A DNA stretch of 23,852 nt from a virus: positions 1 to 23,852 of IMG/VR virus record IMGVR_UViG_3300024265_000203. The stretch is one strand, 5' to 3'. Below, piece by piece: positions 1,652 to 18,215 of the stretch (the stretch's first letter is position 1; each line of letters starts with the position of its first letter). The translations under genes and the position numbers were made by a program. The notes under the pieces are model-generated. The model was not told the origin of the DNA. It saw only the letters and a list, made by a program, of their open reading frames with translations, and did not search any database.

Positions 1652-2494
1652 TTAGGAGATTCCGAGCTCGCGCCAGATCGCGCTCGGGTCCTCGAGACTG
1701 AAATTGATCGAGGTCTGTTTGACGCGGCTCTTCGCGATGTGTGTCGGGAGCTCCTGCGTCCAGATCGTGCGCGTCCCGGAGCCGGAGCCCTTCCCGTCCT
1801 CGACGTGTACGTCGTATCCGATGAAAACGACGTGATCGCTCCAGTTCTTCACGCGCTCGCGCGTCGAGCCTCGGCCCTTCTTGTCTCCGGAGTAGAGCAG
1901 CGGCTCCCACCGGATGAAATCTTCGGCGGCGGGATACGGGACCAGCGCCGAGACCTCGTGAGCAACGAGACAGACGTTGACTCCCAGGGTCGCGATCCGG
2001 TCGAGATCGGCGAGCAGACCATTGAACTCGTCATAGACGAACTGCCAGCCCTTGCCCCAGCCGAACCCCTCGATCGAATCGACCAGTCTGCCTTTGTCGG
2101 TCTTGCGCGTTGCGATGACGTGCTCCTTGGCGAGCTCCTCCGCGACGCTCGCTGTGTCGATCACGATGGAGCGGACACCCTTCGGTGGAGCCTGGGCAAT
2201 TGCCGCGAGCTTGCCGCGGAGCATCGACCAGGAGGGGGCAGTGCGGAGCTCGGAGTCGTATGCGACCTCGAGGAACTCGGTGCTCGACTCGACGTCGAGG
2301 AAGAGAGGCGCCGGCAGATAGGCAGCGAGCGTGCTCTTGCCGATACCGCCGGTGCCGTACAGGACGATGCGATGGGCCGTTTTCGAGACGCCGGTCGCAA
2401 GGGCGAGCGGAACGATCTCCGGGATCGTAGCGCGGGGACTTTGCTTCTTCGCCGGAGCGGACGGCGCAGGGGGCGCGTGCGGTTTCGATGCCAT
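1652..2494 (-). CDS. Sak4-type RecA-like ATPase (AAA_24 family), phage recombinase
   Basis: A 280-aa P-loop ATPase. Walker A is GTGGIGKST at residues 47-55; FLDVE follows at 65-69; Walker B is SIVIDTAS at 109-116 (Asp113); LVAHE at 176-180 fits the sensor position. This order and spacing is that of the AAA_24 / phage nucleotide-binding family that includes the Sak4 single-strand-annealing recombinases. Residues 1-25 are a Pro/Ala/Lys-rich flexible leader. The ATG at 2494 is preferred over the longer ORF, whose extra 41 residues overlap the end of the upstream nuclease gene. No good Shine-Dalgarno is present; the leader contains an ACAACGAA element also seen before the SSB-like gene. It starts 16 nt after the nuclease stop and is followed 41 nt later by the SSB-like gene, a classic annealing/recombination cassette. 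Confidence 0.88.
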   Translation of the reverse strand: MASKPHAPPAPSAPAKKQSPRATIPEIVPLALATGVSKTAHRIVLYGTGGIGKSTLAAYLPAPLFLDVESSTEFLEVAYDSELRTAPSWSMLRGKLAAIAQAPPKGVRSIVIDTASVAEELAKEHVIATRKTDKGRLVDSIEGFGWGKGWQFVYDEFNGLLADLDRIATLGVNVCLVAHEVSALVPYPAAEDFIRWEPLLYSGDKKGRGSTRERVKNWSDHVVFIGYDVHVEDGKGSGSGTRTIWTQELPTHIAKSRVKQTSINFSLEDPSAIWRELGIS

Positions 2495-2510: not shown

Positions 2511-3512
2511 CTAGTCGGCAGGTTGAGCGAGCTCCGGATGGCGGTGCTCGCGACGATGGAATCCGTCAGGAGCGGGATCGCCCTCTTCCGGTCGGATGTT
2601 ATTGGAACAGAGGCCAAAGAAGGTGCACTGGCTGTAGCCGCGAGCCGCGCAGGCGTCTGGGTTGCGATGCATCAGCCCATACTCTTGCGCGTGTTCGAGG
2701 ACTCGGATCTGAGCGATCAGATTGTCCTGGAGCGTCTTCATGTCCTGGGCGCCTCGAGGAACCTCGCGGCGAGCGAAGTAGGTGCCGGGACGGTTCCCGA
2801 TGTCGGCGGTGAGGCGCGCGCCGTAGAGCGCGATCGACTCGCGCCCCTCCTCGAGCGGAGCCTCGAGGTCTTCGGCGGTGAAGGTGTCGTCGTAGTATTT
2901 CGTGACGCCGTCGATCCGGACCTGTGCGCCCATGCGCTTGATCTCGGCCTTCGTCAGGCGCTTCGGATTGATCGTCGGCTTTCGCATGACGTCGTACAGG
3001 ATGAACGCCGGCGTGAAGCCGCAGCCGAGCGAGTAGACGCCGACCTGGACATCGAGACGTAGCCGATCCCAGAACGACGACTCGGCGTCGAGCGCGTCAA
3101 CAGTCGACTTGCGCTCGAGGATGCCGCGACGTCCGTCGATCACGGGGATGCCGTCGATCTGTCCCTCGAACTCGATGCCACCAATCTCGGCACTGAACTT
3201 GTACTCGGACCGCTCGAGGTTGAGCGGCTGGTCTCTCCAGTACCAGTGATAGGCGGCGAAGAGTCGCCGTAGCTTCTCGTTCCAAAGTGGACTCGGAGCG
3301 TGGCGCTCGATCGCGTGGTAGGGCGCCATCAGGAACTGATTGTGCAGGTCCTCGTCGTCGAGGTCGTCGGCGTCGAAAGCCTTGTGCCAGGCCTGGCCGA
3401 CCTGCAGCGCTTCGGCGTCGGCGCTGTCGGGTTCCAGCTGCTGGTTGTATCCGAAGTCGTACTTCGTGAGGCACGAGCGAGCGGTCGACAGACTGGTATT
3501 CGTGTAGCTCAA
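2511..3512 (-). CDS. PD-(D/E)XK exonuclease, Cas4/RecB-like, with possible Fe-S cysteines
   Basis: A 333-aa nuclease. The N terminus (SYTNTSLSTARSCLTKYDF) matches the 'S-x-S-x-L...C...Y' opening of Cas4/RecB-like enzymes. GQAWHKAF supplies the motif-I His (H43); GQIDG gives the metal-binding Asp120; LERKS gives the E-x-K pair (E133, K135); DVQVGVY matches the Q-x-x-x-Y motif. Cysteines C14, C288, C296 and C302 are placed as in the 4Fe-4S cluster of Cas4/AddB, although the C288-x7-C296 spacing is wider than usual. The start is TTG, overlapping the preceding stop as TTGA; GGGAGGAG lies 9 nt upstream and the conserved region begins at once, while upstream ORF sequence overlaps the previous gene. 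It probably resects DNA ends for the Sak4-like ATPase downstream. Confidence 0.85.
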   Translation of the reverse strand: MSYTNTSLSTARSCLTKYDFGYNQQLEPDSADAEALQVGQAWHKAFDADDLDDEDLHNQFLMAPYHAIERHAPSPLWNEKLRRLFAAYHWYWRDQPLNLERSEYKFSAEIGGIEFEGQIDGIPVIDGRRGILERKSTVDALDAESSFWDRLRLDVQVGVYSLGCGFTPAFILYDVMRKPTINPKRLTKAEIKRMGAQVRIDGVTKYYDDTFTAEDLEAPLEEGRESIALYGARLTADIGNRPGTYFARREVPRGAQDMKTLQDNLIAQIRVLEHAQEYGLMHRNPDACAARGYSQCTFFGLCSNNIRPEEGDPAPDGFHRREHRHPELAQPAD

Positions 3513-4055: not shown

Positions 4056-4426
4056 GACTGGCCTCCGCTCTCGATCCCCAGGGAGCATCCTGACTTGTGC
4101 TCGAGCAATCCGTGACAGCATCGAAGTGGCACCAGCTGACCTTCCGGGGTAGCCACCAGATCCCAATCCACGATCTCCACGATCTTGACGGAGCTCTCGC
4201 CGATGGAGACCACGGATAGCTCTGCCGACTCTGCCTTGGCTGGAACAGGCATCCCCCCCCTCCTGAACGCCTCGTCCGTGACGCCGCCCGTGCAATCGAG
4301 GCAGGCGTGGACGCGCTCTCTACTGAAGGGCGCCCGAGGTTCGGAACACAGGCCCCAATCCTTTGCGAGAAACCAAAACCCGCAAACGCAGCATTCGAAG
4401 GTCGGACGATCCGGCATCCCGCTCAT
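4052..4426 (-). CDS. Cysteine-rich, probable zinc-binding hypothetical protein
   Basis: A 124-aa protein whose first 50 residues carry ECCVCGFW (C12, C13, C15), C27, and HACLDC (H40, C42, C45), a zinc-ribbon-like arrangement. The C-terminal half is acidic and beta-prone (VVSIGESSVKIVEIVDWDLV), with further cysteines at its end. The ATG at 4426 has a perfect GGAGG 6 nt upstream and overlaps the previous stop as ATGA; a second Met three codons in (MPDRP) is an alternative. It lies between the DUF6011-like gene and a 46-aa ORF. Metal binding is inferred from the cysteine pattern; the function is unknown. Confidence 0.7.
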   Translation of the reverse strand: MSGMPDRPTFECCVCGFWFLAKDWGLCSEPRAPFSRERVHACLDCTGGVTDEAFRRGGMPVPAKAESAELSVVSIGESSVKIVEIVDWDLVATPEGQLVPLRCCHGLLEHKSGCSLGIESGGQS

Positions 4427-4905
4427 GATCGGCCTCCGCATTTCGGACCGATGCCCAGACGGATCGACTCGGGATCGGTGAGCTTGCGATTGCAGATCAC
4501 GCAACGACCGGCGTGCTGGAGCTCGTACCCCTCGCCGGTCCAGAAACCGTCGGCGGCGCGGACGGCGAGGTCGACCCAGATCGCGAGCTTCGTCTCGATC
4601 GCCGACCAACCTGTCTTCTGAAAGTGAAAGCCGTCGATCGGAAGGTTCGAGTCGGGGCCGCGATGCCGGCGCCAGACGGTGGCCTTCTTGCGAGCGTCGT
4701 CCCAGAAGGCAACGCCGCGATAGTTCGTCGTGTTGTCGGGGCCGACGAGGAGCGAGACGATCCGCTTCCCGATGAGGTCGCCCTTCAGGACCGTGTAGAC
4801 CTTCAGGGTGAAGTGCCCCTGGGTCGGATGCGAGACGGTGTAGGTCCCGTTCTGAACGTTCGGCGCGTTAGTGACGGCCGCGCCGGCCGGATCCTCGTGC
4901 TTCAT
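4423..4905 (-). CDS. DUF6011-like zinc-binding phage protein
   Basis: A 160-aa protein. Residues 18-115 form a beta-rich domain (NGTYTVSHPTQGHFTLKVYT; IVSLLVGPDN). The C terminus has H131, C135, C138 and C156 in the context CVICNRKLTDPESIRLGIGP, closely matching the DUF6011 motif (CxxC-R-x-L-TDPESI-x-x-GIGP-x-C) common in phage replication-region proteins. The ATG at 4905 was chosen over an upstream GTG/ATG extension because the extra 40 residues would cross the terminator-proximal region and lack a ribosome-binding site; GAGAGA precedes this start. It is the first gene after the strong terminator at 5001-5035 and therefore probably leads the recombination operon. The molecular role of DUF6011 is not established. 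Confidence 0.8.
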   Translation of the reverse strand: MKHEDPAGAAVTNAPNVQNGTYTVSHPTQGHFTLKVYTVLKGDLIGKRIVSLLVGPDNTTNYRGVAFWDDARKKATVWRRHRGPDSNLPIDGFHFQKTGWSAIETKLAIWVDLAVRAADGFWTGEGYELQHAGRCVICNRKLTDPESIRLGIGPKCGGRS

Positions 4906-4906
4906 A

Positions 4907-5007
4907 TTTTCTCTCTCAAGGAGCCTCGCGGTTCGTGTGTGCGACGGCTCAGGTCTGTGAACGTACCCCGGTATCGGCAATCCGGCCAGGTGACCTTGAG
5001 AAGAAAA
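4907..5007 (-). promoter_or_regulatory. Leader of the recombination operon with a near-perfect inverted repeat
   Basis: This 100-nt leader lies between the terminator stem and the DUF6011-like gene. Its ends are inverted: ccttgagaagaaaa (4994-5007, plus strand) and ttttctctctcaagg (4907-4921, plus strand) can pair with one extra base. One arm is the T-tract of the terminator and the other carries the GAGAGA ribosome-binding site. A promoter is expected here because the upstream operon terminates, but no convincing -35/-10 pair was found. Confidence 0.4.
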
Positions 5008-5035
5008 GACCCCCCCGGCTCGCATCGGGAGGGTC
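5001..5035 (-). terminator. Strong rho-independent terminator after the lysis-like genes
   Basis: On the minus strand GACCCTCCCG, loop ATGCGAGC, then CGGGGGGGTC form a 10-bp stem (one G-U) followed directly by TTTTCTT. This is a textbook intrinsic terminator. It separates the tail/small-gene region from the recombination operon. Confidence 0.85.
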
Positions 5036-5050
5036 CGGGTGGGGCGATCC

Positions 5051-5143
5051 CTACGGCCCGGGGACGCCAGGCTCCGAGAGAGAGGGTTTCAGATCAAGGC
5101 GATAGCCGCAATCCGGACCGCTCCACCGATCAAAACCTACCAT
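5051..5143 (-). CDS. Possible 30-aa ORF coupled to the lipoprotein gene
   Basis: An ATG overlaps the lipoprotein stop as TGATG, the same arrangement used by other gene pairs here, and opens a 30-codon frame (MVGFDRWSGPDCGYRLDL...) ending 16 nt before the terminator stem. There is no Shine-Dalgarno and no recognisable domain. It may simply be untranslated trailer. Confidence 0.3.
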   Translation of the reverse strand: MVGFDRWSGPDCGYRLDLKPSLSEPGVPGP

Positions 5144-5547
5144 CACGGCACGGCGGACGTCGTCGTCGCGACGATGATCTCGTCGACGAGGATCTGGACA
5201 AGCAACACGATGGCGATGTCCTCACCGTCAAGTTCCTCGATCGCGACCTTCGAGATCAGGGTCGACAGTGACAGCAGCGCATCTGTGCGTGTCTCATCGC
5301 CGGACGCCGCGGCCATGACGTCGAGCGCCGAGGCGATCGTCTCGAATGTCTTCGCTCTGTCCGGGTTGCTCTCCGCGTACGCAGCGGCGGCGGCTCTGAA
5401 GTGTCCCGCGTAGCGAGTAGCGTCGGCGCTGACGCGCTCGACGCGGATCGTGCCGTCTTCGTTGACGAACCGCGACCCGCCGCCAGACGGACAGGATGCC
5501 AAGAACGAACAGGCGACGACGGTGGCGATGGAGAGAAGGTGCTTCAT
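5143..5547 (-). CDS. Putative lipoprotein with lipobox LASC
   Basis: A 134-aa protein that starts MKHLLSIATVVACSFLASC: basic N terminus, hydrophobic core and lipobox L16-A17-S18-C19, so it should be cleaved and lipid-anchored in a Gram-negative envelope. Pro at +2 does not suggest inner-membrane retention. The mature part is mostly helical and Ala-rich (residues 45-95), and the C terminus (IAIVLLVQILVDEIIVATTTSA) is hydrophobic enough to touch or enter a membrane. It overlaps the holin-like gene as ATGA and is followed by a strong terminator. Position and lipidation are compatible with an outer-membrane spanin or superinfection-exclusion lipoprotein, but it is longer than typical Rz1-type proteins and lacks their proline-rich character. 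Function unproven. Confidence 0.75.
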   Translation of the reverse strand: MKHLLSIATVVACSFLASCPSGGGSRFVNEDGTIRVERVSADATRYAGHFRAAAAAYAESNPDRAKTFETIASALDVMAAASGDETRTDALLSLSTLISKVAIEELDGEDIAIVLLVQILVDEIIVATTTSAVP

Positions 5548-5765
5548 TGGTGGCTCGCGTTGTCCATCGTTCGGGCGACCTTTTCGCGTTCCTTGCCGAT
5601 ATCGGCGAGCCCTTGGCTGCCTATGTAGGCGTAGAGCGGAGCGGTTACGATGGCGATCTGCTCGATCGCGAAGCCGAACTTGATGCCGACACCGGAAAGG
5701 ACCGCGGCGAGCGCCGCCGCGCCGAACTTCTTCGACGGCGTGATCGTAGGAACCGAGACTTGCAT
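5544..5765 (-). CDS. Holin-like small membrane protein
   Basis: A 73-aa protein with a polar start, a hydrophobic stretch at residues 14-30 (FGAAALAAVLSGVGIKF), a second at about 32-50 (FAIEQIAIVTAPLYAYIGS), and a charged tail. The ending YIGSQGLADIGKEREK resembles small holin-like membrane proteins of other phages. The ATG at 5765 has GAGG 5 nt upstream within a palindrome (ACCTCGAGGT). It overlaps the lipoprotein gene as ATGA, consistent with a holin/lipoprotein lysis pair. No endolysin is found nearby, which weakens the lysis assignment. Confidence 0.55.
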   Translation of the reverse strand: MQVSVPTITPSKKFGAAALAAVLSGVGIKFGFAIEQIAIVTAPLYAYIGSQGLADIGKEREKVARTMDNASHQ

Positions 5766-5802
5766 GGGAACCTCGAGGTCGGGGTTTCGGAATGAGGCCC
5801 TA
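5766..5802 (-). repeat. Intergenic leader element, copy 1 (TAGGGCCTCA type)
   Basis: The stop codon TAG of the two-helix membrane protein begins the string TAGGGCCTCA, followed by TTCCGAAAC and a palindrome ACCTCGAGGT just before the next ATG. The same opening occurs at 6216-6250 and 6843-6885, and GGCCTCAGG at 7823-7831. Confidence 0.5.
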
Positions 5803-5985
5803 CGCTCTAACCGACAGGAGAGCGCATAGCAAGATCGCTCCGGCAGCGAGGATGACGACTGGAACCGTCCAGCCCCAGAGCCACCAAGAGGCCCCCAAGA
5901 CCGCCCACGGGAAGAGGATCCCCAGAGCGACGGTGGCCGGACAAGGGCGCCCGACCGGCCGCTGATCGTGTCGCGAGCAGATCAC
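5800..5985 (-). CDS. Small two-helix membrane protein
   Basis: A 61-aa protein with two predicted transmembrane segments, residues 18-37 (TVALGILFPWAVLGASWWLW) and 41-58 (VPVVILAAGAILLCALLS), after a short Cys/His/Arg-rich N terminus. The start is GTG and no ribosome-binding site is obvious, so the start is uncertain. It precedes the holin-like gene by 34 nt and its TAG stop begins a shared intergenic element. It could be a second holin/antiholin-like component; this is inference from size and topology. Confidence 0.6.
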   Translation of the reverse strand: MICSRHDQRPVGRPCPATVALGILFPWAVLGASWWLWGWTVPVVILAAGAILLCALLSVRA

Positions 5986-6030
5986 GACCGGAAAGGTAGC
6001 CCGTATCCTGCCGATCGGAGGCGCCGAATC

Positions 6031-6207
6031 TCAGATCTTGGCGAGCTCGGGGACGACGGTGTCCTCGGTCGTCTCGAGGAGGAGCATACCGACCTCCCAG
6101 GAGATTTTCTGCTGGGCGGCCTCGCGCTGGACCGAGCGGCGGCTAGCCGAGATCGAGATCGAGACGGTCGGAAGGGCGCGGAGGAGGGCTTGGATGGCTT
6201 GCTTCAT
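6031..6207 (-). CDS. Small hypothetical protein starting MKQAIQA (58 aa)
   Basis: A 58-aa protein: MKQAIQALLRALPTVSISIS..., then a Gln/Lys-rich middle and EDTVVPELAKI at the end. No family is recognised. Its first seven residues, and the 22 bases spanning them, are identical to those of the gene at 6672-6842, although the rest is unrelated. It is preceded by a TAGGGCC-type leader hairpin. The longer upstream ORF is rejected because it overlaps the gene at 6248-6667. Confidence 0.65.
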   Translation of the reverse strand: MKQAIQALLRALPTVSISISASRRSVQREAAQQKISWEVGMLLLETTEDTVVPELAKI

Positions 6208-6215
6208 GCCTACAC

Positions 6216-6250
6216 TTTCGGCATCCCGGCCCGAATCCTTGAGGGCCCTA
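6216..6250 (-). repeat. Intergenic leader element, copy 2
   Basis: The TAG stop of the 139-aa gene starts the string TAGGGCCCTCAAGGATTCGG, followed by GCCGAA, giving a short TTCGG/CCGAA hairpin before the MKQAIQA start. It is almost the same as copy 3 at 6843-6885. Confidence 0.65.
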
Positions 6251-6667
6251 CTCTGGAATTTCGATTTCCGCGACGTCGTACGGCGATTGCGGCCAGTCGA
6301 GGACGAGACCCGGGCACCGGCGGGGGTAACGCGCGGTCCCCCCGTGGATCTGCGGCCGCGGGATCCGAGCGACGACCTGGAAGAAATAGCTAATCGCCGG
6401 TCGCCATTCCCAAGGCTCCGTGTCCGGCACGACGCGCTGTGAGCGGCTGTGGAGGACGACCGAGCTCGGGGCCGCCGATCGGCCGAGGCGCCGAGAGAGG
6501 AGCTCTTGAGCGGCCTCGAGCAGGGCAAACTTGGCGCCGGTGCGCCAGACGACGAGCTCGGGATCCTCATGGTCCGAAAAGCAGACGAACCCCTCCTCGA
6601 AGACGAGGACGGGGTTCTTGTACAGGGCGCCGTCTCGAGCGCGGACGTAGGTCGAGGAGAGCGTCAT
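6248..6667 (-). CDS. Hypothetical protein (139 aa)
   Basis: A 139-aa mixed alpha/beta protein. It opens with a strand-rich part (MTLSSTYVRARDGALYKNPVLVFEEGFVCFSDHE), contains a helix around LLEAAQELLSRRL, and ends in an acidic VAEIEIPE. No family, motif or membrane segment is recognised. It starts 4 nt after the stop of the 56-aa gene; AAGGAG lies 12 nt upstream of the ATG, rather far. It belongs to the small-gene cluster between the tail genes and the holin-like gene. Confidence 0.65.
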   Translation of the reverse strand: MTLSSTYVRARDGALYKNPVLVFEEGFVCFSDHEDPELVVWRTGAKFALLEAAQELLSRRLGRSAAPSSVVLHSRSQRVVPDTEPWEWRPAISYFFQVVARIPRPQIHGGTARYPRRCPGLVLDWPQSPYDVAEIEIPE

Positions 6668-6671
6668 GGGG

Positions 6672-6842
6672 TTAGGAGAGCTCCTTGGGATCGACGATAG
6701 CGTCGCGGTCGACGTCCTCGAGAAAGATAATCCAGACGTTGGAGGTCTGGTCAGGGTCGACGGCGAGGACGCGGACGCGCTGGCCCTGGTAGGTGTAGAC
6801 GCCGCCTTCGGCGATGTCGTTGGCTTGGATGGCTTGCTTCAT
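6672..6842 (-). CDS. Small hypothetical protein starting MKQAIQA (56 aa)
   Basis: A 56-aa acidic, beta-rich protein (VYTYQGQRVRVLAVDPD...VWIIFLEDVDRDAIVDPKELS) that reads like a small SH3-like barrel. It shares its initiation region and first seven residues with the gene at 6031-6207 and has GAGAGA 4-5 nt upstream of the ATG. A TAGGGCC leader hairpin precedes it. The next gene begins 4 nt after its stop. Function unknown. Confidence 0.7.
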   Translation of the reverse strand: MKQAIQANDIAEGGVYTYQGQRVRVLAVDPDQTSNVWIIFLEDVDRDAIVDPKELS

Positions 6843-6885
6843 GGATCTCTCTTCGGCCAGGCGGGCCGAATCCCTTGAGGCCCTA
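6843..6885 (-). repeat. Intergenic leader element, copy 3, with perfect hairpin
   Basis: The TAG stop of the 68-aa gene starts TAGGGCCTCAAGGGATTCGG; TTCGGCC (6870-6864) and GGCCGAA (6858-6852) form a perfect 7-bp stem with a 5-nt loop, followed by GAGAGA and ATG. Near-copy of the element at 6216-6250. Confidence 0.7.
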
Positions 6886-7089
6886 CAGGGAAAAAGCGAG
6901 AACGTCGATCGCGCGGACGCGGGCGCCGCTCTCGGTGATGAAGTGCGTCAGGCCGGTGCTCCCGGGCTGGGGGCGAGCTACGGACCGAACGCGCTCGGTG
7001 ACGAAATCGTCGCCGACCGGATACGTGATCTCGCTGACGTTGCCGATCCTCCGGAGAAGGGCGGCGTCGGGGTTCTGAGCTTGCTTCAT
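6883..7089 (-). CDS. Small hypothetical protein starting MKQAQ (68 aa)
   Basis: A 68-aa protein (MKQAQNPDAALLRRIG... TERVRSVARPQPG...RVRAIDVLAFSL), apparently beta-rich, of unknown family. The ATGAAGCAAGC start context is shared with three neighbours. No Shine-Dalgarno is seen; the start lies 16 nt downstream of a terminator-like hairpin and T-tract, so its expression may depend on read-through or a promoter not recognised. A longer in-frame ORF upstream passes through that terminator-like hairpin and is not credited. Confidence 0.65.
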   Translation of the reverse strand: MKQAQNPDAALLRRIGNVSEITYPVGDDFVTERVRSVARPQPGSTGLTHFITESGARVRAIDVLAFSL

Positions 7090-7104
7090 GAGGGTCGATT
7101 TCAG

Positions 7105-7133
7105 GGAAAAGAAAGAAGGCCGCCAGCCGGCCT
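7105..7133 (-). terminator. Terminator-like hairpin with T-rich tail
   Basis: On the minus strand AGGCCG, loop GCTGG, CGGCCT form a 6-bp GC-rich stem followed by TCTTTCTTTT. It lies in the 145-nt gap after the 107-aa gene. The rest of that gap (7134-7234) is GC-rich with a direct TGGCCGCT repeat and shows no credible gene. Confidence 0.55.
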
Positions 7134-7234
7134 GGGACGCCCTGTGGCGCGCGCAGCCAGCCGACGGCCCCGGAGGGCGCCAGGAGCCCGTTAGCGGCCA
7201 GAGCGGCCAGCGAAGCTCCCAGGCGACCACCTGG

Positions 7235-7558
7235 CTAGAAGGCCCGCAAGCCGCGCTCCCAGGCCTCGAGGACCGTTTCGAGGCTCTCGAGACGTAGGTC
7301 CGTCCATTCGCGAGCCGGAGCATTCTCGTCGGCACGTTGCTCGGCGATGAGCTCGCGCATGGTCATGATCCGGAGCTTGGTTTTCTCGAAGGCGATTTGC
7401 TTGCGAGCGAAGTCGACGGTGTCGGGGACGAAGACGCGAGCGAAGGGGCCGAGGTCCTTGCCCTCGGAGGCCGCCACGTCGGCAAGGTGCCCTTCACAGA
7501 TCTGGATGGTGTCGAGGATGTCCTCGCGGGTTTCGGCGTCGATGATTGAGTGCTTCAT
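7235..7558 (-). CDS. Hypothetical helical protein (107 aa)
   Basis: A 107-aa, highly charged and mostly helical protein (MKHSIIDAETREDILDTIQIC...FARKQIAFEKTKLRIMTMRELIAEQ...LESLETVLEAWERGLRAF), which may form a coiled-coil bundle. No family is recognised. It starts 4 nt after the stop of the 76-aa gene with GGAG 12 nt upstream, so the two are probably co-translated. A terminator-like hairpin follows about 100 nt downstream. Confidence 0.7.
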   Translation of the reverse strand: MKHSIIDAETREDILDTIQICEGHLADVAASEGKDLGPFARVFVPDTVDFARKQIAFEKTKLRIMTMRELIAEQRADENAPAREWTDLRLESLETVLEAWERGLRAF

Positions 7559-7562
7559 GGTC

Positions 7563-7793
7563 TTAGCTAGCTCCGTTCCAGACCTGCCCGAGCTCGCGCA
7601 GCTTGCGCACGCAGCCGGCACGGTCACCCTGAAAGAGCTCTTCGCCGAACGCGCCGTCGGTCAGGACTTCGTCGACCATCCAGACGACGTCGCCGAAGCG
7701 AGTGAGGAAGCGGCTCGCGACGATCGTGCCGTCGAAAAGCTCGTGGAAAGAAAGGATGCGGGGGCGCTGTGCGCTGTCGGTAGCTTGCTTCAT
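7563..7793 (-). CDS. Hypothetical protein starting MKQAT (76 aa)
   Basis: A 76-aa mixed protein (SFHELFDGTIVASRFLTRFGDVVWMVDEVLTDGAFGEELFQGDRAGCVRKLRELGQVW). AGGAG is 4 nt from the ATG, a good site. The ATGAAGCAAGC start context matches other small genes here, and the 60-nt leader contains a perfect 7-bp hairpin. The family is not recognised. Confidence 0.7.
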   Translation of the reverse strand: MKQATDSAQRPRILSFHELFDGTIVASRFLTRFGDVVWMVDEVLTDGAFGEELFQGDRAGCVRKLRELGQVWNGAS

Positions 7794-7809
7794 GGCTCTC
7801 CTATCGGCC

Positions 7810-7831
7810 GGTCCCCCCAGGGGACCTGAGG
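7810..7831 (-). other. Intergenic hairpin with GGCCTCA element
   Basis: GGTCCCC, loop TGG, GGGGACC is a perfect 7-bp stem with a 3-nt loop in the 60-nt leader of the 76-aa gene. AGGCCTCAGG sits at its 5' side, echoing the leader elements at 5.8, 6.2 and 6.9 kb. Confidence 0.6.
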
Positions 7832-7853
7832 CCTTTCCAACCCCAATCGGAAA

Positions 7854-8213
7854 CTACCCTGGAGGAAGTCCCTGGGGGCGAGAATCGCTCACGGGGCGCC
7901 TTGCGCCGCCCAGAGACCGCCTGAGCAGACCGATCCAATCGTAGGCCGAAAGGTCGTCGACGTAGTGAGCGAGCCGGCAGGCGGCCTCCTCGCCGAACTC
8001 GAGCCCCGGCAGTCGGCGAACCCCATCCTCCGGCCAGCCGTCGACGATCTGGTGGGCGAGCTCGGGAGCCGCGCCGATCGCGACGAGCATCCGAAGCGCC
8101 TCGAGTGCTCTGCCGTGCTGGATCCGGTAGCCGATGACGTCCGAAAAGCCTCGGAAGGCCTTGGCCTTGGGGGACCGCACGAGCTCGAGGAGCTCCAGGT
8201 GCTGGCCGGTCAT
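7854..8213 (-). CDS. Hypothetical protein (119 aa)
   Basis: A 119-aa mostly helical protein (LELLELVRSPKAKAFRGFSDVIGYRIQHGRALEALRMLVAIG...). Residues 1-95 are compact; the last 20 (RRPVSDSRPQGLPPG) look disordered. The ATG overlaps the previous stop as ATGA. No family is recognised. In several siphophages small proteins with this position follow the tail tip genes, but nothing in this sequence assigns a role. Confidence 0.7.
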   Translation of the reverse strand: MTGQHLELLELVRSPKAKAFRGFSDVIGYRIQHGRALEALRMLVAIGAAPELAHQIVDGWPEDGVRRLPGLEFGEEAACRLAHYVDDLSAYDWIGLLRRSLGGARRPVSDSRPQGLPPG

Positions 8214-8578
8214 CCCGGGCTCGGTTTGCGAAACTTGGGATCCTTGAGGATCGCCCCTTCGATCTGGTCGGCGAAGTCCTCGACGGTCGGGAGCGGGCCG
8301 AGCTCGCCGATCTTCTTGGTGGGATCGACCGTCGGCGCGATCGGCGGCGGGCTTAAGGGCTGGACAATGCTCGAGAGCATCGCCGCGGCGATCGGGTGGT
8401 GCTGGAAAAAGAACGCCTGCACGACCTCGCTTCCGACAGTCCAGTTGACCTGGAAGCCGACTCCTTGCTGTAGCGAAACGGTCAGACGGAATGCCTCGAG
8501 GAGCTCGCCCTCGGCCGGCGGCTCGGGGATCGGCTTCGACGCTTTCGTCGGATCTTCAGTCTGCGGATCGTCGGTCAT
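8210..8578 (-). CDS. Hypothetical protein with proline-rich spacers (122 aa)
   Basis: A 122-aa acidic protein: a Pro/Glu/Lys-rich N terminus (residues 1-24), a middle segment (LLEAFRLTVSLQQGVGFQVNWTVGSEVVQAFFF), a Pro-rich linker (SPPPIAPTVDP) and a helical end. AAGGA precedes the ATG by a few bases and the start overlaps the previous stop as ATGA. The longer upstream frame is rejected because it overlaps the DNA-binding gene. Function unknown. Confidence 0.7.
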   Translation of the reverse strand: MTDDPQTEDPTKASKPIPEPPAEGELLEAFRLTVSLQQGVGFQVNWTVGSEVVQAFFFQHHPIAAAMLSSIVQPLSPPPIAPTVDPTKKIGELGPLPTVEDFADQIEGAILKDPKFRKPSPG

Positions 8579-9846: not shown

Positions 9847-12800
9847 TCAAGAAATCATTACGGCGTACGCTTCTTCAGTACCGCCGACAGTCATGGTGAG
9901 AAGTTTCTGGGGGGTCGTGTCCGACGATAGGTGACGGATCTCGATGTCGGTTCCGACCGAGAGGGATGCGTTCGGAATCGTCCCTGGCCCCGTACCTCCG
10001 GCTGCGATCAGCGTGAGGAACGAACCGCCGTCGAGTCGGTACTCGACGTCGCCGACGGAGAAAGAGGACGAGAGGTTGAAGACGTGATCGGTAGCGTCGT
10101 CGCCGCTTTGCACATCGTAGATCGGCGAAATCTCACCGTCGTCGAGGACGCCGAACGCGAAGATCCCAACCAACGGCGACGCGATCGTCGAGACGACCGC
10201 GAGGTAAACCCGCGACGTGTAGACGACCGCGTCGAGCGTATGCGATTCGCGCACCCGGAACGTGAGCGAGGCCGGGAGCGACGTCGCATCGAGGCCCTCG
10301 AGGATATCCAGCTGGCGCGCGGTCGTACTCGTGCCCGAGATCCCAGTCTCGGTGTGCAGGACCGTCACGCCGTCGAGAACCTGGATCTCGATCTCGGTGC
10401 TGTTCTCGGTCGGGAAGTCCGAGAAGAGGGCGGCGGCATCGGTTGCGAGCGCAGCGATCTCGTCGATGGTCCGGAAGTCACGCCGGATGACCGAGTCGAT
10501 CAAGACGCCGACGTCCTCGCCCGAGCCCGATCCGTCGAGATCGACGTTCGTCGTGTCGAGTGTGACCGAGTTGAGATCGAACGCCGCCGGCGGGTAGGGG
10601 CGCCTCGTCCGGTCGTCCATCGCCAGGACGATGACGCTCGCGGTAGCCTCGAGGAGCTCGGCGACGGCGTTCTTCGGGACCAGCTTTAGATCGACGTTGT
10701 CGCCGGCAGGGAGCGCCGTCGCGGACATGCCGCCGCCGACGAAGATCAGGTGGACTCGAGTCCCGGCTGCGTGATCGGCCTGGACCGAGTCGAGAATGCC
10801 GCGATAGACGGTGTTCAGCTGGACGTTGCCGCCGCTCGTCTGTGAGCTCGTGACGAGGATGAACTCCTCCTCGATCAGGCAGAGCGAAAGGAGCTCGGTT
10901 CCGAGCTCGCTGACGTTGACTGCCGTCGGGAAGGCCTCGTTGACTGCCGCCTGCGTGTCTGGATCCGGAACGACAAGGACCGAGCCGACGGGGTTGGTCC
11001 CGCTCAGGTTCAGGGCCGAATTGAGTTGGCCGATCAGCTGAAACTGGAAGACCTGGCCGAAGTCGGGAGCATAGGCACCGGTGGGCGTGCCGCTAGCGTG
11101 CCGCTCTCGCATTTCAAAGGCGGCCTCGCTCGACTGTCGACGTGCTGACGCATAGACCTTGTCCGTCTCTGCGTCGACCGTCTGTGGATCACGCATCGTC
11201 AGGCCTCGAGGAGCCTCGAATGCCAGCTGCTCGTTCGCCGGATAGGCGACCAGGTTGTTTCCAGGGGGAGTCCAATTCGTTCCCGGGTTGGGATCGAAAA
11301 CTCCGGCCGCGGCGAAGAAGACGTCCTGGACAGCCTCGATCACAATCTCCCCATCGAGCAAATCGCCGTAGTCAATCGAGAGGATGCGCATTGGTAGCCT
11401 AACGAAGCCGATGTCGGCATCGGTGAACGCGAACGGGTCGCCGGGCAAGAGACCGTAGAGCGAACGATTCACGATCATCGAACCCTGAGCCAACGGAGTC
11501 GAGTGCACGCGGAGTTCGCGCCAGGCGATCGCGTTGGCGAGCGTCGTCGTCTTGACGCCCGGATGGGAAACGCTCGCCGACACGTTCTTGCCCTGAACGA
11601 GGACGTTCGCCATGTCCTGGGCGAACCCGAAGGTGTTCTTGTACTCGTCGGCCTGGTCGTTGATCGGAACGCGAATCTGGTTCGTCGTTTGCTCCCAGGT
11701 CGCGCGCGTAAACGACTTGAGGTTGAGCATGTTCGATGCGTCGATCTCGGGAATGAGGTCGATGTCGTAATCGTCGCGGCTCAGCTTGAGTTCCCAGTTT
11801 CCTGTAAGGGGGTTCTCGAAGAGGACGCCGTCAATCTGTTCCTCGATTTGACGAACGAGTTCGGGGAGCTCGATCTCGCGATCGAGCAGGAACGAGAATC
11901 CGTTTCCCTCGGCGAAGAGCGTATCGCCGACGGCCGAGAGGTTCGTCGTGTTGACTCTTGCGGGCGCAATCCCGTATCCCCAATCGGCGTTCGTCAGGAT
12001 CTCATACAGGACATTCGCGGGGTTCGCCCCGGAGTCGACGAGCTCATGACCGGCAGTGAGCGCGAGCCCGTTCGGGATCCTGCGGAGCTCGAACTTCCAG
12101 GGGTCGATCGACGTCGACGTTCCCAGAAGCGTGTTCTGGATGTCCGGAGCGATATAGCAGATGTCGCGGTAAGCCGGCGTCGCGCCACCCTCATTCTGAA
12201 ACGGTACGCCGTAGGCCACCGTCAGGGTGCAGCCGGTCCCGCCGCTGGGCGCGACAGTCGTCGCCGCGGGATTCGTTGACTGGGTCGTGTAGGTGCCAGC
12301 CGTCACGAGCGTAATTCCGGTGACCTCGCCCGAGCCGCCGACGCTGTCGACGTTGAAGGTCGCACGAACGGTAGCGGCCCCGTCGCCGGCCTCAGTGAGC
12401 AGGTCACTGACCGAGTAGCCGGCACCTGCGCCGGCGATCGCGGTTGACGTTGTCGCCGGTCGCCCGCCCAGATACGAGCTCGGCTCCTGCGTATTCGTGC
12501 CTGCGTGGAACCGTAGCGTCCCGACAACGCCGCCGCGACCGAGCTCCTCGCCACCGAAGAGATCCGGCTCGTCGATCGTGAACGTGCCGTCGTGAACGAT
12601 CGGAGCTCCGGTGAAGTCGCCGACTAGCGTGTCGCCAATCCAGACCTTGCGGAGCTCGTCGACCGCGCCCATGCAGAGCGCGTGCTGCAAACCCAGGTGG
12701 TAGCGATAGCCGCTAATCTGCGTGTCGGACGAAAAGAGGCCGGTCTTCACCCTGACCGAAATCGCCTCCTGCAGCAGGTCATCGTACCAGATGATGTTCG

Positions 12801-13862: not shown

Positions 13863-15568
13863 TCGAAGAGCACCTGAAGCGGAGCGACCATCCGAGCTCG
13901 AAGGGCTGCTCGGTCATAGTTGATCCGGATTCGATCGGTAGCGAAGCGAAGCTTCTCGACGTACTCGATCCTCGAAATTTCAGCCGGCGTGATCGTGCTC
14001 GGCCAGTTCGTGTCGACCGTCAGCTGGTCAACGGTCGGGCTCGTGTTGGACGAGTTAGTGATCGTCCGAAGCAACGGGGCCGAGCCGTCAACGAAGTTGA
14101 CCCGGATGACGTTCTTCGGCTGGCGATGCCGAACGAACTGAGCGTAGCCGACGTTAGTCACGTCGAGCAGGTTCGATGCCGAGAGGAGGTCGGCGACAGC
14201 GACGAGATCGTCGGACGCGCGGGGGACATAGAACGAAATGAACTGCCCCTTGATCCCGTGCAGCATCCGACGCATTTCCCAGACCGTCTGCCGACCATCG
14301 GCGCGGAGCGTGAAAACATAGCCGCGCTTGTCTCGATCCCATGACGAGTCCTGGAATCGAAGTCCCGTCTGGCCGTCGATCTTCTCGAGCGCCATACGGA
14401 ACCCATGCCCAACCTTCCTGCCCCGAACGCTGTTGGGATTGTCGAGCAGCAGCTTGCCGTTGAACGAGGAGAAGGCCGAGAGATCGCCGATGTCGATGTC
14501 GTTGTCGGTCGGCTCGAATCGAATCTTGTCCTCCTGGAGGTTGACAGGCCATCGCGATCCGCTGATCTGCGACTGAGCGAAGCATGTCGCGAGCGGATAG
14601 ACGCTCGTCCGTGCAAGGTAGGCGTTGATCGTCGGGCTCGTGAAGGACAGCGTCGTCGCCGTGATCGCGCTAATCTCGAGGACGTCGAACGTGGACTGGT
14701 CGACGATGATCACGGCCAACCCGCCTACGCGGAAGTCGCGGAAGTCGGTAGAGCCGACGACGATGGTGGACGCTCCGGCCGACTCGCCGTTCGTGAGCTC
14801 GGTGTCGTCGAACCAGACGGGCACGCCGAAGGTGCGGGAATGAAAGTCGAAGAGGAGGTTCTCGAGCGTCTGCATTTCGACGCCCTCGTCTATCCGGTAG
14901 GTGTAATCCCAGGATTGACGCGGAGCTTTCCGAACAGACTCCCGCTGCTCCTCCCCATTCTTCGACGTATACACGTTCGTCAGAAAGTCGAGCGCCTCGA
15001 TGTGCTGCTGCTCGGGAACCGCGCCCCATAGGACGATCCGCTGGATCTCAATCGGAACGAAGATTGTCCCGAGCCCGGAGAAGCCGAAGTCGAGAGTCGC
15101 ATCGACAAACGGATCGCCGGTCGTCTCCACGTCGACCGTCATCTGCACGCCACTTAGATTGTCAACGTTCGTCGGCAACGTAGGTTGACCGCCGAGGCTC
15201 GTACCGGCGCCAGCACCATTGACGAACGAGGTCCACTCGCGGATTTCACGGCGGAAGGCGTTGAAGACTTCGATCGGAGTTGACTGCGCTGAAAGGAGAT
15301 TGCCGAAGTCGAACGACCGCGGGAGAACGTGGAAGGCTTCGAACCAATCGAAGCCGCCCGAGCTCGCGCCCTCCTCCTGCGCCGGGAACTCGGACACGAC
15401 GATCGGCCGCTTGTGGTCCAGGTTCGTCGTTAGCGCTCCCGACTCAATCGGAAGGGAGAGGTCGGGAACGATTTGCCGCGGGAACTCGGGCTCCGGCTTC
15501 ATCGCAGCCGTGAGGGCGTGGATCGCTTGACCGACTTCGAGGTCTGCTCCTTGGACGAACGTCGGCAT
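13859..15568 (-). CDS. Distal tail / baseplate-like structural protein (569 aa)
   Basis: A 569-aa beta-rich protein. The N-terminal quarter has SFDFGNLLSAQSTPIEVFNA and EWTSFVNGAGAGTSL, a pattern seen in tail proteins next to gpL-like genes. The middle contains a second half with KNGEEQRESVRKAPRQSWDY and the end has LRFATDRIRINYDRA, like the two parts of GTA-type distal tail proteins. It lies between the paralogous structural proteins and the gpL-like protein, the position of Dit/gpM-type components joining tube to tip. The ATG follows the previous stop by 3 nt; its stop overlaps the gpL-like start. Role in the tail is well supported by position; the exact name is not. Confidence 0.75.
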   Translation of the reverse strand: MPTFVQGADLEVGQAIHALTAAMKPEPEFPRQIVPDLSLPIESGALTTNLDHKRPIVVSEFPAQEEGASSGGFDWFEAFHVLPRSFDFGNLLSAQSTPIEVFNAFRREIREWTSFVNGAGAGTSLGGQPTLPTNVDNLSGVQMTVDVETTGDPFVDATLDFGFSGLGTIFVPIEIQRIVLWGAVPEQQHIEALDFLTNVYTSKNGEEQRESVRKAPRQSWDYTYRIDEGVEMQTLENLLFDFHSRTFGVPVWFDDTELTNGESAGASTIVVGSTDFRDFRVGGLAVIIVDQSTFDVLEISAITATTLSFTSPTINAYLARTSVYPLATCFAQSQISGSRWPVNLQEDKIRFEPTDNDIDIGDLSAFSSFNGKLLLDNPNSVRGRKVGHGFRMALEKIDGQTGLRFQDSSWDRDKRGYVFTLRADGRQTVWEMRRMLHGIKGQFISFYVPRASDDLVAVADLLSASNLLDVTNVGYAQFVRHRQPKNVIRVNFVDGSAPLLRTITNSSNTSPTVDQLTVDTNWPSTITPAEISRIEYVEKLRFATDRIRINYDRAALRARMVAPLQVLFE

Positions 15569-16601: not shown

Positions 16602-18215
16602 TCAATCCTCGCGCATCGCCATGAAAGAGAACGGCTGAATGCGTGTGCCGTTCTGAAAGATCGAATAGGCGACGTTGCCCTGAGTGAACCGGTCCTCGCT
16701 CGTGACCCCCGCGTCGGCTATGTGGAACCACCAGACCCCATCCATTTCCCCGAAGGTCCTGAAGAAGGCGGTCGCGGAGTCGGCCTGTACGAGCGTGTTG
16801 GGGAAGAGCGGAAAGAGGTTGCCTCCGGTGTCTGGCGTCCGATAAATCTCCATCGCCAGGGTCGTAAGGGTCAGGTCGTCATTGTCGAATCCCAGAGAGT
16901 TCGGCAGTGCCCAGATTCGATCATCGACCGTCCCGTGCGTGTTGGACGGACCGAGCGGCCAGACGTGAGCGCGAGGCGCATCGCTCTCAACGTTGTATGT
17001 CGGAGTCGTTGCCGTGTTGCTCGAGATCGCCGCGTTCTTGCAGCCGATCCAAACGCCCTCTGGTGCCCAAGCAAAGCATGGTCCATTGTTGCGCTCGATG
17101 ACTTCGGTAAGGCCGCCGAAGATCGAGCCGACGTCGCGCCACCAGACTCGCTTGCGATCACTCGTGCCGGCAACGCATGCCGGGAACGGAAACTCGGTCG
17201 TGATCCCGAACTGATTGAGCAGGCCGAAGTAGCACGAGGCGTAGTACGTCGTCGACGCCGCCTCGATCTTGAAGACGCAATAGACGCGACGACCGGTTGC
17301 CGAAATCCACCACTCGATATTGAAAGCGTCGGAGTCCTTGAGCGGAACGAAGGCGCCGTCGCCCGTCGTCGAGGTCGTGATGGCGCCATCGTCTGCGGTA
17401 CTGAAACCGTCAGAGACGTTCGGCTGTAGGTGCAGGTTCGTACTCGACTGCCAGGCCGTCATCCCGAACAGGGCCCAGTTGAAGACCGTATTGATCGAGG
17501 TCTCGTCGGTCTCGCTCGAGTAGGTCTTGATGCCGACGACGGGATCGAGCGATGCGCCAGCGTCGCCCTGCAGGACGACGATCGTATCGCCGGCAACGTC
17601 GGCCCAGGTCACGTTGAGTGTGCACCCAGTCCCGCCGGTCGGCGAAACAGTCGTAAGAACGGCGTTCGTCGGAAAAACTTCGTAGTCGCCGGCGGCGAGG
17701 AGCGCAACCGAGTCGACTGTTCCGCCCGTGACCGTCGCCGTAAAAGTCGCCGCGCTCCCGCCGGGAGCGAGCACGCCGCCGACTACAGTGAGCACGTCGG
17801 TCGAACCGTTCGTGTAGCCTGACCCGGCAGCGCCAACAGTCGCAGACACGGCCTCGCTCTCGCGCGCGTTCTGTGTCCAGCCGGTCGCAGCGAAAGTGAT
17901 GTCGAAGGTAGCGCCCGAGCCGCCGCCACCCGTCGTGGCATTGGCCGTCAGGTTCGTCGGGTCAACCGTGTAAACGCCGCCGCGATAGATCCGAGCGTCG
18001 GTGATCACGCCAGCGGAGACGGCAGTCACTTCAATCTGGGCGACCTCGGTGCTCGTCGCTCCGGTCTCGTCGAGCCCCAGGATGTCGCCCACGAGATACG
18101 TCGCGGATCCGCCTGAGACGAGAACGATCGTGTCGAGGTGCCGGCCGGTGATTACCTCGATCAGCTGATCGAGCATGTCCAGGTAGTCCGTCGCTGTGCC
18201 CGCGTTGAAGGTCAT
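16602..18215 (-). CDS. Minor tail structural protein with two Gly/Thr-rich repeat domains
   Basis: A 537-aa protein. Residues 1-20 (GTATDYLDMLDQL) and 240-537 align in pattern with the 341-aa paralog downstream. Between them lie two beta-rich repeats, about 30-110 and 120-207, sharing the features 'G-x-Y-x-x-G...L-x-x...G-x-Y-x-x-x-PTN...GGTGCTL'. The second is most like the domain inserted in the gpJ-like protein (GGTGCTLNV versus GGTGCTLTV). The start overlaps the tape measure stop as ATGA. Probably a tail-tip or side-fibre subunit whose repeats act as exposed decoration domains; this is inference from location and composition. Confidence 0.75.
   Translation of the reverse strand: MTFNAGTATDYLDMLDQLIEVITGRHLDTIVLVSGGSATYLVGDILGLDETGATSTEVAQIEVTAVSAGVITDARIYRGGVYTVDPTNLTANATTGGGGSGATFDITFAATGWTQNARESEAVSATVGAAGSGYTNGSTDVLTVVGGVLAPGGSAATFTATVTGGTVDSVALLAAGDYEVFPTNAVLTTVSPTGGTGCTLNVTWADVAGDTIVVLQGDAGASLDPVVGIKTYSSETDETSINTVFNWALFGMTAWQSSTNLHLQPNVSDGFSTADDGAITTSTTGDGAFVPLKDSDAFNIEWWISATGRRVYCVFKIEAASTTYYASCYFGLLNQFGITTEFPFPACVAGTSDRKRVWWRDVGSIFGGLTEVIERNNGPCFAWAPEGVWIGCKNAAISSNTATTPTYNVESDAPRAHVWPLGPSNTHGTVDDRIWALPNSLGFDNDDLTLTTLAMEIYRTPDTGGNLFPLFPNTLVQADSATAFFRTFGEMDGVWWFHIADAGVTSEDRFTQGNVAYSIFQNGTRIQPFSFMAMRED

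Follow-up and report, generated by a model that had tools for sequence, protein, structure and literature searches.

A leader-and-start cassette repeated before unrelated small genes of an uncultured tailed phage resembles the start-associated sequences of other phages

Why should small phage genes with unrelated bodies begin with the same leader and the same first codons? The question is raised by virus record IMGVR_UViG_3300024265_000203, of which positions 1 to 23,852 were analysed and are called the window here; an earlier note on it had seen a repeated leader and start in front of small genes and read them as a spreading initiation module or a recombination point for swapping genes. The window is a portion of a tailed-phage genome: the 42.8-kb contig IMGVR_UViG_3300028610_000998 is the same phage (99.994% identity across 16,082 aligned bases), and the two combine into a 43.6-kb genome of an uncultured tailed phage. 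All cassette features lie on the minus strand, and genes are named by their lower coordinate (6672 is gene 6842-6672, 6031 is gene 6207-6031 and 7235 is gene 7558-7235), so that the order along this strand is 7854, 7563 (MKQATDS), 7235 (MKHSII), 6883 (MKQAQNP), 6672 (MKQAIQA), 6248, 6031 (MKQAIQA), 5800, 5544, 5143 and 4423. Purpose-written scripts called 66 genes (63 minus) in one count and 61 in another. With moderate confidence we read the repeat as a lineage-specific start-associated sequence (SAS), that is, as a translation-initiation cassette probably copied by recombination within a block of accessory genes.

The strongest repeat stands before 6672 and 6031. Their start regions share a block of ~65 nt that has 82% identity (E against the genome 6e-10 in one direction and 2e-10 in the other) and spans the TAG stop of the upstream gene, the leader and the gene itself up to codon 7. 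None of 500 shuffled pairs reached the score of this match, whether for the full region or for the upstream 60 nt alone. Within the block lie the 22 identical bases over the start and MKQAIQA that the earlier note had pointed out, C followed by ATGAAGCAAGCCATCCAAGCC, at 6843-6822 and 6208-6187. The bodies behind them are indeed unrelated, with no similarity above shuffles at the nucleotide level or in any pair of frames. Chance similarity combined with the usual preference for MK starts is hardly credible as an explanation and is already refuted by scoring for this main pair, as mid-gene windows of the same size and score gave no such pair in any of the 183 contigs of the survey described below; what speaks for chance is that two shorter elements, GTAGGGCCTCA and the start of 6883, are each at or near chance when taken alone. 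The features of the main pair are as follows.

6843..6885, minus: leader of 6672, beginning with the TAG stop of gene 7089-6883, followed by TAGGGCCTCAAGG, the TTCGG-N9-CCGAA arms and then the start
6822..6842, minus: first seven codons of 6672 (MKQAIQA), every base identical to 6187-6207
6672..6842, minus: 6672, a 56-aa gene behind the cassette, found in this phage only
6208..6250, minus: leader of 6031, beginning with the TAG stop of gene 6667-6248
6187..6207, minus: first seven codons of 6031 (MKQAIQA), the second copy, identical to the first
6031..6207, minus: 6031, a 58-aa gene behind the cassette, its body unrelated to 6672, in a variable slot between conserved 6248 and 5800/5544
6248..6667, minus: conserved gene 6248, which sits between both full cassettes and is itself without one; homologues in the related loci L027, L028, L108 and L109

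The codon-usage score of 6672 is positive, and a search with it found only the same phage; among the small genes only the holin-like one has a usable Pfam or PHROG match.

Shorter copies accompany the long ones. ATGAAGCAAGC has exactly four copies in the genome, all at the four MKQA starts, which include the two further ones already noticed, of genes 7793-7563 and 7089-6883. The leader of 7563 matches that of 6672 over 27 nt around the start (85%, E 5e-4), and gene 7089-6883 has only CATGAAGCAAGC(T) in common with the cassette. TAGGGCC occurs three times in the 43.6 kb (both strands scanned), always at gene junctions of this stretch, where TAG stops run into TAGGGCC(C)TCA at 6885, 6250 and 5802 just as first described. 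The similarity at 5802 is another matter: the sequence is present, but taken by itself GTAGGGCCTCA scores no better than chance (E about 0.9-1; reached in 4-5 of 500 shuffles). Its position before the holin-like gene, as the third and last TAGGGCC of the genome, is suggestive despite this near-chance score. The related GGCCTCA near 7823-7831 proved weaker than claimed, since GGCCTCAGG at 7833-7825 belongs to the 7563 leader, whose real similarity is the 27 nt just mentioned.

7782..7833, minus: third, partial copy, with GGCCTCAGG, a different stem-loop and then GGCCGA.AG.GAG..CCATGAAGCAAGC
7563..7793, minus: 7563, a 76-aa gene beginning MKQATDS, supported by its codon score
7078..7090, minus: start-only copy CATGAAGCAAGCT of gene 7089-6883 (68 aa), 12-13 nt exact
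5793..5803, minus: GTAGGGCCTCA at the 5800/5544 junction, combining the stop of a membrane-protein gene with the leader of the holin-like gene; possible leader remnant
5544..5765, minus: holin-like gene 5544, conserved (PHROG holin, E 3e-4)

How far does the signal reach beyond these genes? The octamer ATGAAGCA, whose copy counts are independent of the gene callers, has eight minus-strand copies in the genome, every one of them at a gene start, and one plus-strand copy that is not at a start. No other ATG octamer is as over-represented in this genome (nine seen against 0.96 expected under a third-order Markov model, p 8e-7). Ten genes start with ATGAAG and in eight of these CA comes next, compared with 1 of 23 among other ATGAAG copies (p 3e-5). 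Starts with ATGAAGCA belong to 7 of the 10 genes called at 4423-8213 and to 1 of 51 other genes (p 2e-6). Beyond those of the earlier note they lie at 7558, 5547 and 4905 in the window and at 42326 outside it.

7551..7558, minus: ATGAAGCA start of the 107-aa gene 7235, whose homologue in contig G002 stands behind a different leader
5540..5547, minus: ATGAAGCA start of gene 5547-5143, from the octamer scan
4898..4905, minus: ATGAAGCA start of the DUF6011 gene 4423, whose homologues in relatives start otherwise
4423..4905, minus: DUF6011 gene 4423, conserved in relatives

The conserved genes 6248, 5544, 7854 and 8575 are without a ATGAAGCA start. A simple link to accessory genes has its exceptions, as conserved 4423 carries the octamer and 5143 and 42326 do so too.

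Two properties of these starts point to translation. The glutamine codon CAA is rare in this phage (61 CAA against 295 CAG in the training genes), and yet it is used for all six glutamine codons in the four MKQA starts; and in their start windows the eight ATGAAGCA genes show weaker folding than other genes (p 0.002). From the position of the cassette, the weak structure around its ATG and this choice of rare codons we infer a role in translation initiation. The same weak structure would also suit pure convergence, in which phage and host favour ATGAAGCA-type starts because these are weakly structured and have good early codons, and the long repeat would be a single duplication of the ordinary kind. 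Four ATGAAGCAC starts with unrelated flanks agree with this, as does conserved 4423, which has the octamer here and not in relatives. However, the octamer is almost absent from relatives (starting 2 of 656 called genes in 29 other contigs, compared with 8 of 61 here), seven of its eight starts fall within one 2.9-kb block, and the match between the 6672 and 6031 leaders lies beyond 500 shuffles upstream of the ATG itself, and we regard convergence alone as unlikely.

The neighbourhood of the cassette can be followed in relatives, collected as 80 loci with a profile of the large tail protein; L108 and L109 were found with the holin-like protein. L027 and L028 retain 7854, 6248, 5544, 4423, 2511 and 1652 in the same order, with the 5544 homologue immediately downstream of that of 6248 and directly overlapped by it, and in L028 a gene of ~740 aa (with a homologue in L027) stands between 7854 and 6248. 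In L108 and L109 two other small genes lie ahead of 6248, and the 6248-5544 interval holds a likely homologue of 5800, alone in L109 and together with a GGDEF gene in L108. That gene (L108 2771-3361), which encodes a GGDEF (diguanylate cyclase) domain with a Pfam E of 4e-17, is situated between the 6248 homologue and the lysis genes. Because relatives carry other genes or none at their places, 7563, 7235, 6883, 6672 and 6031 occupy variable slots, and the four MKQA genes have no homologue among the 29 contigs. The 6248 product of L027 extends a few residues beyond the point where the cassette TAG ends it here. A joint insertion of 6031 and 5800 between TAGGGCC copies was considered and dropped, since 5800 has its likely homologues in L108 and L109.

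Several relatives have repeated leaders of their own, with other sequences. In G002, the name used for locus L117 and its 59-kb contig, the 17-nt core ACCACGAAAGGCAACGA has seven exact copies, each directly in front of a start codon; since the end of the contig recurs near its start, one of the seven is apparently another of them read twice. Variants included, this leader precedes eight genes with mutually unrelated products. Most of these are found where the contig ends; one is close to its start, a short way ahead of the 4423 homologue, a place that matches the slot in the window provided that the contig is circular or has terminal redundancy. One gene behind a variant of the G002 leader encodes a zeta-toxin-like kinase (L200 15147-15626, equal to G002 54947-55426; Pfam E 1e-17). 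In L115 CCAACCGACTG[CG]C stands before three genes, and in L116 it is present at two places.

A likeness to the cassette is seen in L032, where two leaders have TTTCCT-C-GG, CCGAAGAG and GGCATGAAG in common, and one of them starts at the TAG of the upstream gene and precedes an 84-aa gene between the 7854 homologue and the lysis genes, as in the window. Compared with the 6672 leader it scores 32, which none of 1000 shuffles reached. When all starts were compared, the L032/6672 pair was 26th of the 30 pairs listed, and 64 of 38,340 pairs scored at least 28; many of the higher pairs are probable orthologues. The match is suggestive of shared descent and does not prove it. That an initiation module set before unrelated genes is repeated here, and with other sequences in several relatives, is well supported.

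The same pattern was sought in a survey of 183 contigs of at least 10 kb (shorter loci were dropped), in which pairs of genes with unrelated bodies and a start-region score of at least 36 were counted. Such pairs were present in 17 contigs: 5 of 8 kin contigs (repeats had already been noticed in some of these), 11 of 101 further viral contigs and 1 of 74 bacterial ones. In 14 of the 17 the aligned part includes the start codon, and these 14 show a tendency for paired genes to be close in gene order (combined p 0.005). In another viral contig, L192, the leaders before 5081 and 3959 form a pair; they have a GC-rich inverted repeat ahead of the Shine-Dalgarno sequence and start codon, and the two neighbouring genes behind them are unrelated.

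How might the copies have arisen? The cassette block consists of small accessory genes, with tail genes on one side and recombination genes on the other; the latter include a candidate agent and its partner.

1652..2494, minus: Sak4-like single-strand annealing protein (phrog_124, E 8.5e-34), candidate agent of short-homology recombination
2511..3512, minus: PD-(D/E)XK exonuclease, partner of the annealing protein (Pfam PDDEXK_1, E 6e-10; phrog_1218, E 1e-15)

Both families are linked to mosaicism in the literature, as far as its summaries go. In its full form the cassette comprises a stop codon, a 43-nt leader, the ATG and two to seven codons, and in its shorter forms only the surroundings of the ATG are retained. 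Short-homology recombination by the phage may have copied it locally between gene junctions, and it would be kept because it supplies newly arrived small genes with a working, weakly structured start. Of the spreading initiation module, then, the repetition before unrelated genes is borne out; the spread by copying is inferred, no intermediate having been seen, and it fits the local clustering of the repeats and the presence of the Sak4-like protein and exonuclease.

The same enzymes, together with the best copies lying only two genes apart and the proximity of repeats in other contigs, would also suit mere debris of one local duplication, the gene bodies of which were later replaced and which has no present function. 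Against this stand the 22 start bases, which are identical down to the rare CAA codons, whereas divergence in the leaders amounts to about a quarter, and the recurrence of similar repeats with other sequences in relatives. We find debris quite unlikely.

With less certainty, an initiation cassette copied in this way may also serve as a preferred joint for later gene swaps, which was the second proposal of the earlier note. It is plausible and goes no further than that: cassette genes sit in slots where relatives differ, and the body of 7235 is found behind another leader in G002. The homologue there, at 56744, is 42% identical (E 7e-10), with similarity from residue 9; 7235 starts with ATGAAGCAC in the window, and the homologue stands behind the G002 leader and starts with ATGACGAAC, like two others there. 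This is an example in favour of swapping and no proof, as N-termini vary for many reasons. An exchange with its breakpoint in a shared element was not found among the relatives compared, because none of them has this exact cassette.

Several observations weigh against the cassette reading. The exact leader pattern, searched in 2.9 million viral contigs, occurs in one contig, of the same phage, and no relative with this cassette was found there; a degenerate scan for MKQAIQA starts gave 10 stretches, of which 9 came from elsewhere and had, on inspection by eye, no leader like this one. A DNA search of an annotated collection of cultured phages brought up two weak matches to the region, neither of them identified as a cassette. 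Just two long copies exist in this genome, the remaining ones being 8-27 nt long. The two best copies differ most in a few parts, the Shine-Dalgarno region being one of these, and in one copy that region is poor. Copying is not always local, since in 9 of the 17 contigs with repeats the genes of the best pair are not directly adjacent. Finally, the leaders are no more stably folded than dinucleotide shuffles (z -0.30, 0.09, -1.33 and -0.26), so the special small hairpins once seen before the ATG are not supported and a reading based on RNA structure was dropped. A promoter or terminator reading was rejected as well, as no sigma-70-type promoter was found in 5500-8300 and the count of terminator-like sequences equals background.

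Two window leaders do contain TTCGG-N9-CCGAA, with 5-bp arms and a 9-nt loop, and a third has a different stem-loop. Could proteins bind here? T4 RegA is the model for a translational repressor site on RNA, and either such a site or a DNA operator at gene starts might co-regulate the accessory block. The arms are invariant while the loop varies, and the missing sigma-70-type promoter would agree with control of this kind. Nor do the arms co-vary, like those of the extended SAS of cluster K mycobacteriophages, for which the authors favoured a DNA-binding protein (PMC3203893). Yet the arms are present in just two window leaders, the same motif lies inside a structural gene at 14133, and the corresponding leaders of G002 (where the leader is unstructured), L115 and L116 are without such arms. 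Protein binding as the purpose of the repeat is thus distinctly unlikely in our view.

Since 2011 start-associated repeats have been described, chiefly in mycobacteriophages, and no function is assigned to them. In cluster K they precede subsets of non-structural genes, about half of them with inverted repeats; their authors left the function open and, where inverted repeats are present, favoured protein binding (PMC3203893). In a 2025 survey of 188 genomes the role is still described as unverified (PMC12699233). As there described, they share with the cassette a short asymmetric repeat just upstream of the start codons of mostly hypothetical, non-structural genes of different families, and the upstream stop codon can fall inside the element. 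Confinement to non-structural genes is also apparent here: of the eight ATGAAGCA starts seven fall within 4423-7793, the eighth is at 42326, and none precedes a recognised tail gene (head genes were not scanned against families).

There are also differences. The cluster K consensus GGGATAGGAGCCC is absent here, with only GATAGGAG in the 7563 leader; in the cluster K phage Anaya, whose sequence we checked, the shared part ends before the ATG, whereas the window cassette runs two to seven codons into the gene; and 11-19 copies there contrast with two long and a few short ones here. The extended form has imperfect 17-bp inverted repeats upstream of the SAS; the 5-bp arms in two leaders here, which do not exceed shuffles, might or might not be their counterpart. 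In the general sense of an SAS, the same short sequence stands near the starts of several unrelated genes and hardly elsewhere, here and also in G002. Citrobacter phage Mordin has a 26-bp repeat that its paper calls reminiscent of SAS (PMC4611695). In the Mordin sequence we find 14 sites in 20 kb with up to six mismatches, and the repeated leader precedes small hypothetical genes in one accessory block, as here; it differs in its clear GGAG, in ending before the ATG and in having no shared codons.

Translation signals in the first codons after the ATG are familiar as the downstream box and as A-rich early-codon enhancers. The downstream box consensus, which we take to be AUGAAUCAC, differs by one base from AUGAAGCAC; unlike it, the signal in the window is bound up with a repeated leader and a single phage lineage. 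The window case fits the general SAS idea and adds another sequence and the reach into the coding region, earlier descriptions of which are not excluded by a literature search. The cassette resembles the known, unexplained start-associated sequences of other phages.

One environmental phage group has several sequence-unrelated versions of such a module in corresponding blocks, partly reaching into coding sequence, which suggests a recurring way for phages to equip small genes, foreign or new, with a functional start, and the leaders of the relatives offer a natural series for direct testing. More doubtful is a broader idea, in which small-gene blocks are built on interchangeable junction cassettes (stop, leader, start and first codons) of lineage-specific types, bodies are joined behind them and recombination through the cassette is the route of gene turnover. 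If true, the same gene body should wear different starts in different phages.

Some minor observations concern the tail genes. Two of those in the window have a 64-nt stretch in common (72%), at 12213-12276 and 17606-17669, apparently a repeated domain, and second matches of the tail protein of a like kind are seen in L026, L027, L032 and L033. The best match of the tail protein in bacterial genomes is L206 10001-12853 (41% identity), on a contig binned with a Phycisphaerales metagenome-assembled genome, which is a possible hint to the host group.

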